A stretch of 12,404 nt of DNA from Deferribacteraceae bacterium (lineage in GTDB: Bacteria > Chrysiogenota > Deferribacteres > Deferribacterales > JAISNW01): the NCBI GenBank assembly GCA_031276055.1, contig JAISNW010000151.1:1-12404 (forward strand), read 5' to 3'. Shown piece after piece: positions 5,330 to 12,404 of the stretch. Below the pieces are notes generated by a model that did no database searches, was not told the origin of the DNA, and worked only from the letters and a program-made list of their open reading frames with translations. Every line of letters begins with the position of its first letter. Position 1 is the stretch's first letter. Position numbers and translations under genes: made by a program.

Positions 5330-6469
5330 TTGAAAGCTAAACTAATTTTAATAGGTAAGATTATTCTAACCCTTTTTGCTCTGGAGATTATAGCAGGCGG
5401 GGTTATCGCTTATTCAATCTGGGTGCGGATAGGGGCAAAACCAGTGAGTTATAATGTTGATTATTATAAATCGGGGAGGTTTATCTTCCCCAAAAACCCC
5501 AATCCTGTTCACCGCCCATTGCGAGAGGAAGATAAGCTGGCTAAACGCGGCTACGCGGGCTGGCTCCGCTTTTTATCCCGTTCCCCAAATGCACCGGATT
5601 TTAAGTTGGATAAAATATATTTAAGAAAGTATGATTTTCCAAATGCGCCGGATAAATACAACGTATATTGGCTAGGGCACTCTACAACTATTATCGAGTT
5701 AGACGGGGTTAGGCTTATTACAGACCCAGTATTTGGGTATGCATCCCCTTTTTTTCTAGCGGGAAGACGTTATGATGCACCCGCTTTAGAGCGTAAAGAG
5801 CTCCCAAATATTGATATAGCGCTCATCTCCCACGATCACTATGATCACCTAGAATATGCAACGATCAAGCGCTTAAAAAACAAGCGGACAATCTTTGTTG
5901 TGCCTCTAGGGGTAGGAAACCACCTTAAAAGGTGGGGTATTGAAGATATTAGGATTAAAGAGTTGGGGTGGGGCGATTCCTTCTCATATAAAGGGGTTGT
6001 TATTACCGCTGAAAGAGTTATTCATTGGACAGGGCGCCTGCCTAAATATAGAAATTCAACTCTAGCTGTTTCCTATGTGATAAAAGGCGCTGATAAGCTG
6101 CTGTTCTTCAGCGGTGATACCGGTTATGGAAAGCACTTTAAGCAGATCAGAGAGAAGTATGGAGATTTTGATCTTGCAGCTATTGAGATAGACGGTTGGA
6201 ATCCGCGATGGTCTGATATTCATCTCTTCCCTGATGAAGTGATTGCAGCATCAAGGGATTTGGGGGCAAAACTTCTTCTGCCTATCCATTGGGGCGTATA
6301 TGATCTTGCATATCATAGGTGGGATGAATCCATTAGAGAGGTTGCAAGACTTGCCATTGAAAGCGGGCAACGTATAGCCTCTCCGCGCATGGGGGAAAAG
6401 CTGCAACCGCTTGAATTTCTAAAAAAAGAAGATAAAGAGCCTATGTGGTGGATGTATCAGAAAAGGTAG
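5330..6469 (+). CDS. Membrane-anchored metallo-beta-lactamase-fold hydrolase (NAPE-PLD/UlaG-like)
   Basis: A metal-dependent hydrolase of the Lactamase_B_2 branch. Relatives include N-acylphosphatidylethanolamine phospholipase D and UlaG-type lactonases; the substrate here is unknown. From the TTG start the product is 379 aa. Residues 4-32 form one hydrophobic segment (KLILIGKIILTLFALEIIAG and on), so the enzyme is probably anchored with the catalytic domain outside the cytoplasm. The fold starts at YWLGHSTTIIELDGVRLITD (about 113-132). The metal motif HDHYDH is at about 168-173, with further candidate ligands D263 (SGDTGY) and H320 (PIHWG). TTG at 5330 is chosen because AAAGGTG (5318-5324) is 5 nt upstream and the start lies 2 nt after the pyrC stop. 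An upstream in-frame TTG at 5258 would lie inside pyrC and hide the membrane segment. Confidence 0.85.
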   Translation: MKAKLILIGKIILTLFALEIIAGGVIAYSIWVRIGAKPVSYNVDYYKSGRFIFPKNPNPVHRPLREEDKLAKRGYAGWLRFLSRSPNAPDFKLDKIYLRKYDFPNAPDKYNVYWLGHSTTIIELDGVRLITDPVFGYASPFFLAGRRYDAPALERKELPNIDIALISHDHYDHLEYATIKRLKNKRTIFVVPLGVGNHLKRWGIEDIRIKELGWGDSFSYKGVVITAERVIHWTGRLPKYRNSTLAVSYVIKGADKLLFFSGDTGYGKHFKQIREKYGDFDLAAIEIDGWNPRWSDIHLFPDEVIAASRDLGAKLLLPIHWGVYDLAYHRWDESIREVARLAIESGQRIASPRMGEKLQPLEFLKKEDKEPMWWMYQKR

Positions 6470-6480
6470 ATGGTGCGAAT

Positions 6481-7425
6481 ATGAGTTTGTTTGAATATAC
6501 TATTTCAGAGCAATACAATGCCGACAGCGATGCTGTATTTTTGACAGGAGATGTTCTTAAAGTATCTAAACACCTTCCCGACAATGCTTTTAAGTTGATC
6601 ATAAGCTCTCCCCCATACAACATAGGTAAAGAATATGAGAAAGAAACCGCTTTAGATGATTACCTTCATTGGCAGGAAGAGGTTTTGAAAGAGTTGTATC
6701 GGTGCATACATACCAATGGGAGCATCGTTTGGCAGGTGGGAAATTATGTAGATAAAGGCGAGATATACCCGTTGGACGTCTTTTTTTACCCTATTTTTAA
6801 GCGATTGGGCTTAAAACTCAGAAATAGGATAGTTTGGCATTTTGGGCATGGTTTACACGCTTCTAAACGGTTTTCCGGTAGATATGAGGTTTTGCTCTGG
6901 TTTACAAAAGGTGATGAGTATACATTTAATCTAGATTCTGTTAGAGTTGCCTCAAAATATCCGGGAAAACTAAGCTATAAGGGTAAAAATATCGGCAAAC
7001 CTAGCGGGAATCCGTTAGGCAAGAACCCAACAGATTTCTGGGAGATTATAACAGACGAGTGGGAAGAGGGGATCATAAATATCCCTAACGTTAAATCGAA
7101 CCATCCGGAGAAAACAGAACACCCTTGTTCTTTTCCTATAGAATTAATTGAAAGATCTGTTTTAGCGCTGACGGATGAGGCAGACGCGATATTAGACCCT
7201 TTCGGCGGTGTGGGTTCAACATTGATAGCAGCAATAAGAAGGGGGCGCCGCGGGGTTATTATTGACAAAGAATACAGATATATTGAGATTGCAAAAGAGA
7301 GGGTGAAAAAGCTGGAGAATGGTTTATTGAAGGTGCGCAATATCGGAACCCCTATATATACTCCTACCGGGCGGGAAAAAATCTCACAAGCGCCGTTAGA
7401 GTGGCTGAATTTGGAGGATAAATGA
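6481..7425 (+). CDS. Site-specific DNA methyltransferase, SPPY type (probably N4-cytosine), first MTase of the RM cassette
   Basis: An S-adenosylmethionine-dependent amino-methyltransferase of the beta arrangement, with catalytic motif IV before the SAM-binding motif I. Motif IV is SSPPYNIGKEYE (SPPY at 43-46) and motif I is DPFGGVGST (from D239). SPPY is most common in N4-cytosine enzymes, DPPY in N6-adenine enzymes, but the rule is not absolute. Between them are WQVGNYV, WHFGHGLHASKRFSGRYE and SGNPLGKNPTDFW, which look like a conserved target-recognition region. The 314-aa product starts at the ATG at 6481. A GTG at 6445 is in frame but overlaps the previous gene and adds 12 residues that do not look conserved. 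The stop overlaps the ATG of the endonuclease gene (ATGA). It presumably protects host DNA against that nuclease. Confidence 0.85.
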   Translation: MSLFEYTISEQYNADSDAVFLTGDVLKVSKHLPDNAFKLIISSPPYNIGKEYEKETALDDYLHWQEEVLKELYRCIHTNGSIVWQVGNYVDKGEIYPLDVFFYPIFKRLGLKLRNRIVWHFGHGLHASKRFSGRYEVLLWFTKGDEYTFNLDSVRVASKYPGKLSYKGKNIGKPSGNPLGKNPTDFWEIITDEWEEGIINIPNVKSNHPEKTEHPCSFPIELIERSVLALTDEADAILDPFGGVGSTLIAAIRRGRRGVIIDKEYRYIEIAKERVKKLENGLLKVRNIGTPIYTPTGREKISQAPLEWLNLEDK

Positions 7426-8000
7426 AAATAGTTGCAGAGTATGATTTTAATGGCGGGAAGAAAGTGTTATCAGAAAGATATGTTGAGGAATATGATGAAA
7501 TAGTGACAGTAATAAATTCTGTGGATGCCTTATTTTATAAGAACAAGGTAAGTAATGAGATTACAATGAAGGGTAAGCTGCTTTTTTCCCCAATTGAATT
7601 AAATGAAGCTTATAAAAAAGAATTTAACATACTAGGGTGGCAGCATAAAAAAGTGGAGTGTAATTATATTTATGGCAATTATTTTAAGGATTATAAACCA
7701 TCCCTAACATCTACTAGAAAACCTTTTAGGGATATGGATTTTATAAAGTGCTCAAAAAAATTAGGTGTGGAGGTTCAATTCGGAAAATATGCTTTTATGG
7801 TTTATAATGTGTGTGCAAAGATGACTATCTTTAGGAATTTAGGGGTAATAGATACCGGGGTGGAGATAGTGCCCGTAAAACGCTTGGCTGACGATATGAG
7901 TACTGGAGTTTCGTATTTTGAACAGTTTGCATGGGATTTAGAAGTTAGGGGTGTATCGGACATAGATGTACCTGTTTTGATATTAGGCGTGGATATTTAA
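7422..8000 (+). CDS. BglII/BstYI-like type II restriction endonuclease
   Basis: A 192-aa protein that I recognise from recalled sequence as a BglII/BstYI-family PD-(D/E)XK nuclease. BglII cuts AGATCT and BstYI cuts RGATCY. Similarity to BstYI is strongest in KLLFSPIELNEAYKKEF (about 52-68), VEVQFGKYAFMVYN (116-129), GVEIVPVKRLADDMSTGVSY (146-165) and VPVLILGV at the end. The active site is visible: D106 (in RDMDF), then E117 and Q119 (VEVQF), matching D84, E93 and Q95 of BglII. Length is close to BstYI (about 200 aa). GGAGG ends 5 nt before the ATG, which overlaps the upstream methyltransferase stop. The gene is visibly more AT-rich than the pyr genes, a sign of acquisition. A GATC-core target is inferred from the family, not shown. 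Confidence 0.82.
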   Translation: MKIVAEYDFNGGKKVLSERYVEEYDEIVTVINSVDALFYKNKVSNEITMKGKLLFSPIELNEAYKKEFNILGWQHKKVECNYIYGNYFKDYKPSLTSTRKPFRDMDFIKCSKKLGVEVQFGKYAFMVYNVCAKMTIFRNLGVIDTGVEIVPVKRLADDMSTGVSYFEQFAWDLEVRGVSDIDVPVLILGVDI

Positions 8001-8005
8001 TATAT

Positions 8006-8899
8006 ATGATTAAGTTAAATATGGGCAACAATAAAAACAATTTTGAAGAGCTTATATCCAATCTATCAATGCTGAAACCAACAAAAGAACCTTATTATTA
8101 CTCTGATAATCTAATTCTTTATAACGATAACTGCCTTGAAGTGCTTGCAAATATCCCTGAAAATTCAATAGATATGATTTTTGCCGACCCGCCTTACCTA
8201 TTGTCAAACAATGGTTTCACCTGCCAAAACGGAAGGAGGGTTGCCGTTAATAAGGGCAAGTGGGATCAAAGCAACGGATTTGAAGAAGATTTAGCTTTCC
8301 ACAACGTTTGGATAACAGAGTGCCGCCGCATCTTGAAACCAGAGGGAACTATCTGGATAAGCGGCACATACCATAATATTTACCAGTGCGGCTATTTATT
8401 GCAAAAAAACAATTTTCATATCTTAAACGATGTCGCATGGTTTAAGCCCAACGCGGCGCCTAATCTTAGTTGCAGATTTTTTACTGCATCTCATGAAACG
8501 CTATTATGGGCAAGGAAAGAGAAAAAAGCAAAACACACATTCAATTATGAGAGTATGAAAAACGGTTGTTTTCCTGAAGATAAAATAAAAAAGGAAAATG
8601 CACAGATGCGCTCTGTTTGGCATATCCCCACTGCAGGCAAAGATGAAAAGGAGTTTGGCAGACATCCGACACAAAAGCCTTTGTCGCTCTTAAACAGAAT
8701 TATTCTTGCTTCAACAAAGGCTGAGGATATTATCTTAGACCCTTTCAGCGGGGGAGGAACTACAGGCGCTGCATGTTTAAGCGTCGGCGGCAGATATTGC
8801 ATCGGTATAGAGATAGACAGAGAATATTGTAAATTATCCGTTGAAAAATTTAGAAATATGCAAGGCAGATCTCTTGTTTCGTTTGAGACTTTAACTTAG
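8006..8899 (+). CDS. Site-specific DNA methyltransferase, DPPY type (N6-adenine, M.DpnA-like), second MTase of the RM cassette
   Basis: A beta-arranged DNA amino-methyltransferase of 297 aa. Catalytic motif IV is FADPPYLLSNNG (DPPY at 61-64) and motif I is DPFSGGGTTG (from D245). The intervening GTIWISGTYHNIYQCG, NPNAAPNLSCR-like NAAPNLSCRFFTASHETLLW and GRHPTQKP closely resemble, from memory, M.DpnA and other second methyltransferases of DpnII/MboI-type systems, which methylate adenine in GATC. That fits the GATC-core specificity expected of the neighbouring nuclease. The ATG at 8006 follows the endonuclease stop by 5 nt and has only a weak Shine-Dalgarno sequence; an ATG at 8021 is an alternative that removes five residues. 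The TAG stop directly abuts the ATG of the next gene. The recognition sequence itself is an inference. Confidence 0.85.
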   Translation: MIKLNMGNNKNNFEELISNLSMLKPTKEPYYYSDNLILYNDNCLEVLANIPENSIDMIFADPPYLLSNNGFTCQNGRRVAVNKGKWDQSNGFEEDLAFHNVWITECRRILKPEGTIWISGTYHNIYQCGYLLQKNNFHILNDVAWFKPNAAPNLSCRFFTASHETLLWARKEKKAKHTFNYESMKNGCFPEDKIKKENAQMRSVWHIPTAGKDEKEFGRHPTQKPLSLLNRIILASTKAEDIILDPFSGGGTTGAACLSVGGRYCIGIEIDREYCKLSVEKFRNMQGRSLVSFETLT

Positions 8900-10320: not shown

Positions 10321-10384
10321 TCTATAATTTATGGGTTATATTATATAATAGTTAAGAGCGGCCGCTCTGAAAATTCCCCTTCAC

Positions 10385-10418
10385 CCTTTCATTTTTGTGT
10401 TTACACAAAAATGAAAGG
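10385..10418. repeat. Perfect 16-bp hairpin in the left block
   Basis: CCTTTCATTTTTGTGT (10385-10400) pairs with ACACAAAAATGAAAGG (10403-10418) without mismatch around a 2-nt centre. The flanks (CCCCTTCACC before, about GGGGGTG after) are conserved at the three other repeat arms, but the stem sequence is not. It lacks a T-run on either side, so it is not a typical terminator. Confidence 0.8.
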
Positions 10419-10441
10419 TTTTAAGTGCAGGGGGTGGACGC

Positions 10442-10473
10442 CTTCTGATTGTGAGTTTACGAACAATCAGAAG
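10442..10473. repeat. 11-bp hairpin with conserved loop (left copy)
   Basis: CTTCTGATTGT and ACAATCAGAAG pair perfectly around the 10-nt loop GAGTTTACGA. The same hairpin recurs inverted and identical at 12031-12062. It recurs in direct orientation with a changed stem (9 of 11 pairs) but an identical loop at 11806-11837. Confidence 0.8.
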
Positions 10474-10495
10474 ATTAGCAGACGGGGTAGTCTAA

Positions 10496-10597
10496 ATCGC
10501 AAGCCGTTATTACGCTATAAAATGGAAATAAATTAGCGGACTTAGGTAGTTGTACATCGCAAACTGTAATTACGCGATAGATGAAAATAAATGGCGG
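10496..10597 (+). repeat. Two direct copies of a ~43-bp unit, 60-bp period
   Basis: 10496-10539 and 10556-10597 both follow the pattern ATCGCAA..C.GT.ATTACGC.ATA.A, then AAATAAAT..GCGG. Only one copy exists in the right block, so this is a local tandem duplication in the left block or a deletion in the right. Confidence 0.65.
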
Positions 10598-10732
10598 TTA
10601 AAAATACCCCAAAGGTAAATTGTATTATACTTTGCTCTTTTATTTTCCAATTACCCCGTCTGCTGATTTATTTTCAACGGTCGCGTGGGCAGCGTTTGCG
10701 ATTGAAACAAAGATGAGAAAGCAGTTATGAAT

Positions 10733-10975
10733 CTATAGTTTAGTCTTTAGTGTCTCTATCTCTGATATGCTAAGATTCGTAAGCTCTGAAATTAAAGAAA
10801 TATCCATCCCTTTTTGCAACATCTCAAGCGCAACTTCCGCCTTGCCTTCCGCCTTGCCTTCCTTCCTTGAGACTATCATGCTATGATCCCAATCTGCCAA
10901 AAATTTCCGACGGGAACGAAATTTTGCCCGCTCATGCTCATCTTGGCTTATATGAACCAACACCTCATTAGCCAT
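10733..10975 (-). CDS. Predicted intragenic small protein from the Rpn gene (RpnS-like C-terminal product)
   Basis: An in-frame ATG at 10975 (Met 218 of the nuclease) is preceded by AAGGAGG (10985-10991), a full anti-16S match, with a 9-nt spacer. This is a stronger ribosome-binding site than the one at the full-length start. It would give an 80-aa product holding only the C-terminal helical region and the EGKAEGKAE repeat, without the catalytic residues D68, E82 and Q84. In E. coli, Rpn genes are known to encode such short C-terminal proteins from internal starts, and these inhibit the toxic full-length nuclease. Here the small protein is predicted by analogy. A TATAAC box lies just upstream (near 10999-11004 on the minus strand), but without a good -35 box, so a separate promoter is uncertain. 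Confidence 0.5.
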   Translation of the reverse strand: MANEVLVHISQDEHERAKFRSRRKFLADWDHSMIVSRKEGKAEGKAEVALEMLQKGMDISLISELTNLSISEIETLKTKL

Positions 10976-11626
10976 CTTTATCTCCCTCCTTGCAGCTGTT
11001 ATACTCTCTATCAATCCTTCATAATTGGGGTTATCGGCATATTTTATAAACACTGACCAACCTTCAGCGCCATTCATTGCTCTCACAGGCTTTCTCAATA
11101 TCTCCCCAAGTTTCGTCAAATCCACAAATCCTATATTAATATCTTCCGATAGAAGAAAACCATCTTCACTGCGGAGCTTAAACCAGTTAAAAGGAGCATC
11201 CCTGCCCGCGAATACAGGAAAACCGCAAAAAGTCAGCTGATACGACCTTACCATATCCTTGTAATCGATCCCTTTTCCTCTCTGTGATGAGTGTAAATCG
11301 CAAAGATTATAAATAAACCTAGTTTTGAGCCCCTTATGTTCATTCAAGGCGCTGTCGCCTTCAACAGCTGCTGTCTGCATCTCCACATTTACCTGATCTC
11401 CAGAGTCGGTTGCACAGTTCACATCCAAACGCTCCATCTTCTCAAATACATCACCTTTAGGCAACTCCGTATTAACCAGCGCAACTTCCTTTACAGTTAT
11501 ACCCGTGAAAGAAGTTATTATATCTTTCAAACTATCCCTAGTATCAGGGTGCATTAATATCGTCTTAAATACAAGATCGTCTGTAGGCGGTAAAATCTTT
11601 GGCAGCTTCATCTCATCGCTTCTCAT
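10733..11626 (-). CDS. Rpn-family recombination-promoting nuclease (PD-(D/E)XK, PF12784-like)
   Basis: A 297-aa member of the PD-(D/E)XK 'nuclease family transposase'/Rpn group. Characterised E. coli Rpn proteins are DNA endonucleases that promote recombination, and some act in phage defence. Recognisable parts are TDDLVFKTILMHPDTRDSL (about 16-34) and the catalytic D68 (MERLDVN) with E82-x-Q84 (VNVEMQ). SYQLTFCGFPVF comes next, with a C-terminal EGKAEGKAE repeat (about 257-265) and a helical end, MLQKGMDISLISELTNLSIS, typical of the family. ATG 11626 is chosen because AGGAG lies 6 nt upstream. The longer in-frame start at 11683 would need translation through the promoter at 11645-11674. The gene sits alone between inverted repeats and contains a strong internal start at 10975. 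Confidence 0.88.
   Translation of the reverse strand: MRSDEMKLPKILPPTDDLVFKTILMHPDTRDSLKDIITSFTGITVKEVALVNTELPKGDVFEKMERLDVNCATDSGDQVNVEMQTAAVEGDSALNEHKGLKTRFIYNLCDLHSSQRGKGIDYKDMVRSYQLTFCGFPVFAGRDAPFNWFKLRSEDGFLLSEDINIGFVDLTKLGEILRKPVRAMNGAEGWSVFIKYADNPNYEGLIESITAARREIKMANEVLVHISQDEHERAKFRSRRKFLADWDHSMIVSRKEGKAEGKAEVALEMLQKGMDISLISELTNLSISEIETLKTKL
10834..10857 (-). repeat. 12-bp tandem repeat coding for EGKA-EGKA
   Basis: Two exact 12-bp units (CTTCCGCCTTGC on the plus strand), followed by a partial third, encode Gly/Lys/Ala/Glu tetrads in the Rpn nuclease C-terminus. Gain or loss of a unit keeps the frame and would change linker length in both the nuclease and the predicted internal protein. 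Confidence 0.8.
10985..10991 (-). promoter_or_regulatory. Internal Shine-Dalgarno sequence in the Rpn gene
   Basis: AAGGAGG on the minus strand encodes Ala-Arg-Arg-Glu in the nuclease frame and lies 9 nt before the in-frame ATG at 10975. It uses the otherwise rare-looking AGG-AGG Arg pair. Confidence 0.6.
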
Positions 11627-11644
11627 GGCAGCTCCTGCGGCTCT

Positions 11645-11674
11645 ATTATACTTTTCAAACGGATGCAAAGTCAA
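11645..11674 (-). promoter_or_regulatory. sigma70 promoter for the Rpn nuclease gene
   Basis: On the minus strand TTGACT (11669-11674), an 18-nt spacer and an exact TATAAT (11645-11650) lie 18 nt before the ATG at 11626. The leader would be only about 10-12 nt, just holding the AGGAG ribosome-binding site. The promoter lies inside the repeat-bounded region, so the gene carries its own expression signal. Confidence 0.75.
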
Positions 11675-11860: not shown

Positions 11861-12133
11861 ATCTCAAACTGCAACCCACGCGACCGCTGAAAATAAATTA
11901 GCGGGCGGGGTAATTGGGATATATAAAGAGCAAGATATAATACAATTTACCTTTGGGGGATTTTAACCCACATTTATTTTCATCTATCGCGTAATTTCAG
12001 TTGATGATTTAGACTACCCCGTCTGCTTATCTTCTGATTGTTCGTAAACTCACAATCAGAAGGCAGCCACCCCTTGCACGGAAACCTCCCCGCTAAAGCG
12101 GGTAGGGTGAAGGGGAATTTTCGGAGCAGCCGC
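11861..12133 (-). repeat. Right inverted-repeat block of the Rpn region
   Basis: The reverse complement of this block aligns with 10358-10702. Shared stretches include AATACAATTTACCTTTGGGG, TTTATTTTCATCTATCGCG, TTTAGACTACCCCGTCTGCT, the 32-nt hairpin at 12031-12062, and the end AGGGTGAAGGGGAATTTTC. The hairpin next to the outer end is again a different sequence (CCCGCT/AGCGGG, 12089-12102, extended by CCT/AGG). It lacks one of the 60-bp units found on the left. Confidence 0.75.
11914..11941 (+). promoter_or_regulatory. Promoter-like sequence in the right block
   Basis: TTGGGA (11914-11919), 16 nt, then an exact TATAAT (11936-11941). The left block has an inverted counterpart (TTGGAA at 10645-10650, TATAAT at 10624-10629, 15-nt spacer). 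Both point outward, through the hairpin arms, and could drive a short structured RNA. Conservation may only reflect shared ancestry of the repeats. Confidence 0.35.
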
Positions 12134-12299: not shown

Positions 12300-12404
12300 C
12301 TATTGCAGCAGCTGCAGCGCTATCTGCGGCAGGGTGTTTGCCTGCGCCAGCATCGCAACGGCGGAGTTCACTAGAATCTGATTCCTTGCAAATGTGGCTG
12401 ATTC
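12300..12404 (-). CDS. Flagellin, C-terminal 34 residues (runs off the window)
   Basis: The minus-strand frame from the window edge to the TAG at 12300-12302 reads ESATFARNQILVNSAVAMLA and then QANTLPQIALQLLQ. This is the conserved C-terminal D0 helix of flagellin, which packs in the core of the filament and is needed for export and assembly. The pattern ARNQIL..SA.AMLAQAN..PQ is diagnostic. A terminator follows at 12212-12250, so this is the last gene of its transcript. The rest of the gene, its promoter and any sigma28 signal lie outside the window. Confidence 0.92.
   Translation of the reverse strand, partial: ESATFARNQILVNSAVAMLAQANTLPQIALQLLQ

Follow-up and report, generated by a model that had tools for sequence, protein, structure and literature searches.

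A conserved internal start signal and a predicted small C-terminal product in an Rpn-family nuclease gene

We propose, with good though not complete confidence, that one reading frame of the Deferribacteraceae contig analysed here (the window, the whole stretch of 12,404 nt) encodes two proteins: the nuclease RpnL and an independently translated C-terminal product, RpnS, that is most likely its inhibitor. The weight of the argument lies in a comparison of 85 homologues, which indicates that the internal start of the gene is under nucleotide-level selection across several phyla. Features of the locus are collected in Table 1.

Table 1. Features of the rpn locus, in window coordinates
Feature	Position	Strand	Basis
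rpnL, full-length Rpn-family PD-(D/E)XK nuclease, 297 aa, from ATG 11626	10733..11626	-	PF12784, TIGR01784
rpnS, predicted 80-aa intragenic product	10733..10975	-	start codon ATG/GTG/TTG in 85/85 kept homologues; C-terminal part matches RpnA_S 7TH0
Internal Shine-Dalgarno (SD) AAGGAGG	10985..10991	-	pairing -11.8 kcal/mol; best of 299 columns across 85 homologues
TATAAC, possible -10 box, 6 nt before internal SD	10998..11003	-	5/6 letters; family-level TATAAT excess
Two GKAE four-residue repeats in predicted long helix	10835..10858	-	sequence; helix 230-271 of 297-aa model
ATG Met269 (ORF-listing frame), close to E. coli-type RpnS start; not conserved	10877..10879	-	pairing -4.0
AGGAG, SD of full-length start, 5 nt before ATG 11626	11632..11636	-	sequence; pairing -6.6 kcal/mol
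Sigma70-like promoter TTGACT-18-TATAAT, just ahead of full-length start	11645..11674	-	11/12 consensus matches

The window gene and its two predicted starts

The product of the window gene matches PF12784 (E 4.6e-21) and TIGR01784 (E 2.7e-22), both over cut-off; among the control genomes, the E. coli proteome also passes the TIGR01784 cut-off. The translation start of the full-length nuclease is likely to be ATG 11626, which is also the start of the database entry P0001. The ORF listing begins instead at TTG 11683, which we rejected because it has no SD and sits just upstream of the sigma70-like promoter; the ATG 11626 column, for its part, shows SD constraint across the family in the synonymous-shuffle test described below. 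In an alignment of 40 homologues E54, D68 and E82 are invariant in the nuclease part, and from what is known of the PD-(D/E)XK family these residues probably lie in the active-site region.

Within this frame an in-frame ATG (10975-10973), which is residue 218 of the 297-aa protein and codon 237 of the ORF-listing frame, opens 80 codons running to the stop at 10733. It is preceded by AAGGAGG (10991-10985) with a spacer of 9 nt (10984-10976). The first-pass annotation had described this arrangement correctly, and it is confirmed here on the minus strand, although the interval given for it ended at 10990, one base short of the SD. Its further statement that the 80-residue product would lack catalytic residues agrees with a start well after E54, D68 and E82, and the ribosome-binding site is, as it had suggested, stronger than that of the full-length start (-11.8 versus -6.6 kcal/mol).

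Taken alone, the internal SD and ATG of the window gene are only mildly unusual. The window contains one instance of AAGGAGG-N5..10-ATG against 0.24 expected, and 39 of 200 shuffles contain one or more. Among the 156 internal in-frame ATG, GTG and TTG codons of the 11 window ORFs, two reach an SD pairing of at least -8.5 kcal/mol, namely the rpn ATG (-11.8) and a TTG in pyrB (-11.5). Synonymous shuffling of the window gene by itself gives p ~0.08; one gene is thus no proof, and the proof comes from comparison of the family.

Constraint on the internal start across homologues

Genome contigs were scanned with the alignment of 40 homologues and two peptide patterns taken from the nuclease region, far from the internal site. 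This gave the 80 loci used here, the top 80 among 111 that were confirmed; a scan with a single protein as query found no matches in the genome contigs. Viral sequences, scanned with three patterns of which one lies just downstream of the internal site, added 2 loci. From 110 matches, 98 ORFs scoring >60 bits were aligned; six were gapped at the internal-start column, and the remaining 92 rows had 68 ATG, 17 GTG, 4 TTG and three other codons (ACA, CAA, GAA) there. Seven rows were then dropped: four solitary tail copies (L057_10, L030_22, L097_8, L075_20), one divergent sequence (L009_45), and L005_18 and L006_20, which are the same sequence cut before the SD. All three non-start codons belonged to dropped rows (L057_10, L030_22, L009_45). 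The kept set (n=85) comprises the 80 genome loci, the 2 viral loci and 3 copies from the window's own genome. At four of the genome loci (L025, L048, L064, L077) the full-length gene is split into two open frames with the internal start and tail frame intact, and only the C-terminal frame entered the counts; some other rows are cut by contig ends.

Assigned by hand from record titles, the genome loci fall into 40 Bacillota/other, 19 Spirochaetota, 8 Synergistota, 8 Fibrobacterota, 2 Planctomycetota, and 1 each from Acidobacteriota, Deltaproteobacteria and Actinomycetota. These are eight phylum-level groups, the window's own phylum being absent from them, and as most records are MAGs, binning errors and gene transfer are possible. 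Among 50 genomes of the window's phylum three have a match, one of which is the window's own. For the protein of the neighbouring pyrB gene, the closest named matches among the 120 best of 8000 listed come from Deferribacteraceae and Deferribacterales, so that the host probably belongs to this group.

Every one of the 85 kept homologues has a start codon at the internal-start column (66 ATG, 15 GTG, 4 TTG). Where the residue is Val it is always encoded by GTG (15/15) and where it is Leu always by TTG (4/4), whereas elsewhere in the same genes GTG makes up 494 of 1657 Val codons and TTG 511 of 2404 Leu codons. The product of per-gene probabilities for this skew, estimated with pseudocounts from the codon usage of the gene concerned, is 9.7e-12, which is not an exact p value as the genes are related. 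Among 63 homologues available only as proteins (P0002-P0064), the residue at this position is M in 50, V in 10, L in 2 and E in 1.

The SD shows the same kind of constraint. Against a null of 200 shuffles keeping amino acids and codon usage, mean SD pairing at the internal-start column is -10.9 kcal/mol versus -6.0 (sd 0.36) in the shuffles (z -13.7), a larger pairing excess than at any other of the 299 columns; neighbouring columns carry the same signal because the search windows overlap. Next among independent sites comes the N-terminal start, around column 20 (52 genes, z -7.6), and its recovery serves as a positive control that validates the method. Pairing of -7 kcal/mol or better is found in 84 of the 85 genes, the exception being L041 (-6.4), and the SD is retained despite shifts in frame phase and in the encoded residues (KEE, RRE, KGE, KKE, EEV). 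Gene by gene, 15 of the 85 reach p 0.05 and 81 beat the null median; thinning to 49, 28 and 13 sequences leaves z at -10.3, -8.0 and -6.1. The first-pass annotation had named loss of the internal SD/ATG in close homologues as a result that would speak against it, and had asked whether conservation went beyond what the amino acids require; the homologues keep both elements, and the excess over synonymous shuffles is the conservation it looked for. Column 269 (Met269), near the E. coli-type start, was considered as an alternative internal start and rejected, having a start codon in 35% of 82 genes and an SD z of -0.8.

Ahead of the internal start, at -33..-15, boxes resembling TATAAT are over-represented (z 7.0 in a first test, z 6.3 in a permutation test), TATAAT being the most enriched of 20 A/T permutations there, and a perfect TATAAT precedes the internal start in 20 of the 85 genes. 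A further A/T excess at +3..+21 was rejected as a promoter, being generic, with TATAAT mid-ranked among the permutations. An internal promoter has been reported for E. coli rpn genes (PMC10327210). Around the internal start, from -20 to +22, the mRNA folds less than its shuffled versions do (z +5.9), an effect that is not specific to this start since z has a similar value of +5.3 eight codons further along and reaches -5.9 after twenty codons.

To place the window clade in the wider PDDEXK_2 family we assembled 55 Rpn genes, after excluding those with >180 bits to the window-clade profile or <170 aa, and thinned them to 47. A strong internal start lies in the C-terminal 36-150 codons of 23 of the 47, where synonymous shuffles would lead one to expect 9.4. 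In this set the column with the best SD (z -4.9) precedes the window's start by ~10 residues, has a start codon in 11 of 41 genes and fits the motifs E-E-E-L-x-M and E-T-K/E-E-E-L-x-M. Other PDDEXK_2/TIGR01784 Rpn genes are therefore like the window gene in that a strong in-frame internal SD and start is common among them, but differ from the window clade in that their starts occupy shifted positions; the feature is common but neither universal nor fixed in place.

The predicted small product, its relatives and its surroundings

Intragenic small proteins of Rpn genes have been demonstrated in E. coli and for one C. difficile gene (PMC10327210, preprint, main text). In that work Zhong et al. 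2023 described the RpnL/RpnS toxin-antitoxin pairs of E. coli (rpnA-E, rpnP2) and C. difficile. The window gene has in common with these a PD-(D/E)XK nuclease, an in-frame internal start with SD, a small C-terminal product (here predicted), four-residue repeats, many copies of which occur in locus L007, and, in some cases, a separate copy of the small gene further downstream. It differs in its nuclease domain (PF12784 rather than PF04754 as in E. coli RpnA), in the length of RpnS (80 aa versus 49, 53, 59-60 and 56 aa for E. coli K-12 rpnA, B, C and E in the same scan) and in the distance from Met to the repeats (~40 residues rather than the 8-20 of PMC10327210). The first-pass annotation's claim of the same layout as in E. 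coli thus stands for the in-frame internal SD and start but needs qualifying for their position, as the start here lies ~37 residues earlier than that of RpnA_S, inside the nuclease Pfam domain.

An AlphaFold model of the 297-aa protein has a mean pLDDT of 91 and C-terminal helices at 200-212, 214-228, 230-271, 276-283 and 287-296. In this model the predicted RpnS, from residue 218, takes in most of one short helix, the whole long GKAE-repeat helix and a two-helix tail. A Foldseek search of the PDB found nothing with E <= 0.001. A profile built from 40 RpnS sequences aligns with the crystal chain of RpnA_S, 7TH0 (E 2e-4), positions 44-83 of the profile falling on 7-47 of the chain. The repeat protein 8vd6 scores above it, with an E of 9e-14 that is summed over five stretches of 0.65-1.4 each taken alone and covers only profile 52-83, the last helices. 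From the 7TH0 alignment, E. coli RpnA_S corresponds to the C-terminal half of the window type, which has ~37 extra N-terminal residues. All residues invariant in the 40 aligned RpnS (M1, A2, L6, S10, E13, R22, D28) fall in this extra region, a stretch missing from E. coli RpnS, so that the binding mode may differ. In a search of openly accessible literature listings, and in the main text of PMC10327210, we found no report of the codon-level pattern or of a longer RpnS.

Solitary copies of the tail lie downstream of a full gene at six loci (L057, L030, L097, L049, L033 and L075), the last with two successive tails after one full rpn gene (L075:1234-1899), and shorter tail fragments lie near genes in L083, L069 and L028. 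Compared with the 85 tails, five of the seven solitary copies are most similar to that of the full gene beside them, which ranks second and third for the other two. Copies L075_20 and L097_8 keep GTG with an SD at the internal-start column; the remaining copies begin slightly further downstream or overlap the stop codon of rpnL, and the SDs of some of them are weak.

The window's own genome (G000) has further rpn copies, mostly fragments and several at contig ends. One of these (L003, contig C239) begins with a 42-nt stretch that is 86% identical to the window promoter region and ends in TATAAT; a short weak match to codons ~181-188 follows, then continuous rpn sequence from ~codon 201 (ORF-listing numbering). 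Most of the nuclease part is missing, and the internal SD and an 81-aa RpnS are retained. By its sequence L003 is a solitary rpnS-like gene behind an rpn-type promoter, which we read as a probable natural deletion, an assembly fault being the alternative. The dN/dS between the window RpnS and that of L003 is ~0.14 (0.148/1.07), part of which divergence may predate the deletion. A second PDDEXK_2 paralogue in this genome (C130, L099) has no internal start at -7 kcal/mol in its 188-aa open frame. By eye, C-terminal tails look swapped between paralogues: the tail of L002:208-438 resembles that of the divergent C130 paralogue, and the tail of L003 that of the window gene.

Two N6/N4 methyltransferase genes enclose a gene for a BglII-like restriction endonuclease (PF09195, E 1.2e-13) at 6445-8899, about 1.8 kb away from rpn; to judge by these matches they are together likely a restriction-modification system. 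Its proximity is consistent with a defence neighbourhood but proves nothing. PADLOC models gave no match for P0001, nor for E. coli RpnA. Long imperfect inverted repeats flank the rpn gene (10358-10689 and 11875-12133; arms up to 100 nt, 86%), whereas PMC10327210 describes rpn genes as lacking identifiable flanking inverted repeats. The genome contains 46 matches to this repeat family, some of them next to rpn fragments on contigs C17 and C194, and with so many matches the repeats are no more than candidate ends of an autonomous transposase element of the kind implied by the old annotation. At the window edge, an open frame (12300-12404, minus strand) looks by eye like a flagellin C-terminus.

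Interpretation and alternatives

In the reading we prefer, RpnL would be a PD-(D/E)XK DNA nuclease translated from ATG 11626, and RpnS would be translated independently from ATG 10975 via its strong SD, probably in excess, and in some lineages perhaps also from an internal promoter. Having no catalytic core, RpnS would most likely bind the identical tail of RpnL and hold the nuclease inactive until stress or phage infection upset the balance. That RpnS is made, binds and silences the nuclease as an antitoxin, and equally that RpnL is toxic and the pair anti-phage, we infer by analogy with E. coli (PMC10327210).

The internal product could instead be an obligate assembly subunit without which RpnL does not work, like Cas11d in type I-D Cascade. 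According to the main text of PMC10327210, the small subunit in that CRISPR system is likewise translated inside a large-subunit gene, that of Cas10d, although the proteins are different and their relation is cooperative, not inhibitory. The DNA-level evidence for a separate product would be the same on this account; an RpnS start inside the nuclease Pfam domain would suit it, and the seven invariant N-terminal residues could be structural. E. coli RpnA-S, however, inhibits RpnA-L both in vitro and in vivo (PMC10327210), and we consider the subunit account unlikely. The solitary tails and L003 fit an antitoxin that outlives its toxin, but are compatible with a subunit too.

Two further accounts do without a second product. 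It has been proposed that ribosomes slow down at SD-like motifs within genes, and the SD-like stretch here might tune elongation, with a pause before the C-terminal domain, rather than initiation; the site does lie near a helix boundary (between helices 200-212 and 214-228). But pausing would neither limit the downstream codon to ATG, GTG or TTG nor put TATAAT upstream, which makes this account very improbable. The SD and ATG might also be a by-product of conserved amino acids (K/R-E-E-I-x-M-A). E- and K-rich codons do by themselves bring the shuffles to a mean of -6.0 kcal/mol, and the window gene singly is not significant. Shuffles that keep the amino acids nevertheless give much weaker pairing than is observed, and the choice among synonymous codons is biased towards GTG and TTG; at the level of the family, thinned sets included, the data contradict this explanation, to which we give next to no credence.

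Returning to the two-protein reading, we lean slightly towards a broader version of it, in which a gene-within-gene antitoxin would be a general and old feature of the PDDEXK_2 branch in many phyla, its start having moved; the K/R-E-E-I-x-M-A motif would have been kept largely as a ribosome-binding site and start, and the extra helix of the window clade would come from the nuclease domain. If this is true, that extra helix implies that RpnS docks in a way that E. coli does not show. Constraint in eight phylum-level groups (by record titles) suggests a lasting property of a nuclease family that is often annotated 'transposase', and gives a rule for genome annotation: an internal SD with ATG, GTG or TTG should be sought in Rpn genes. 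It also illustrates that what looks like a conserved protein motif can conceal a signal for translation, and the differences in start position raise the question of the minimal RpnS needed to silence the nuclease.
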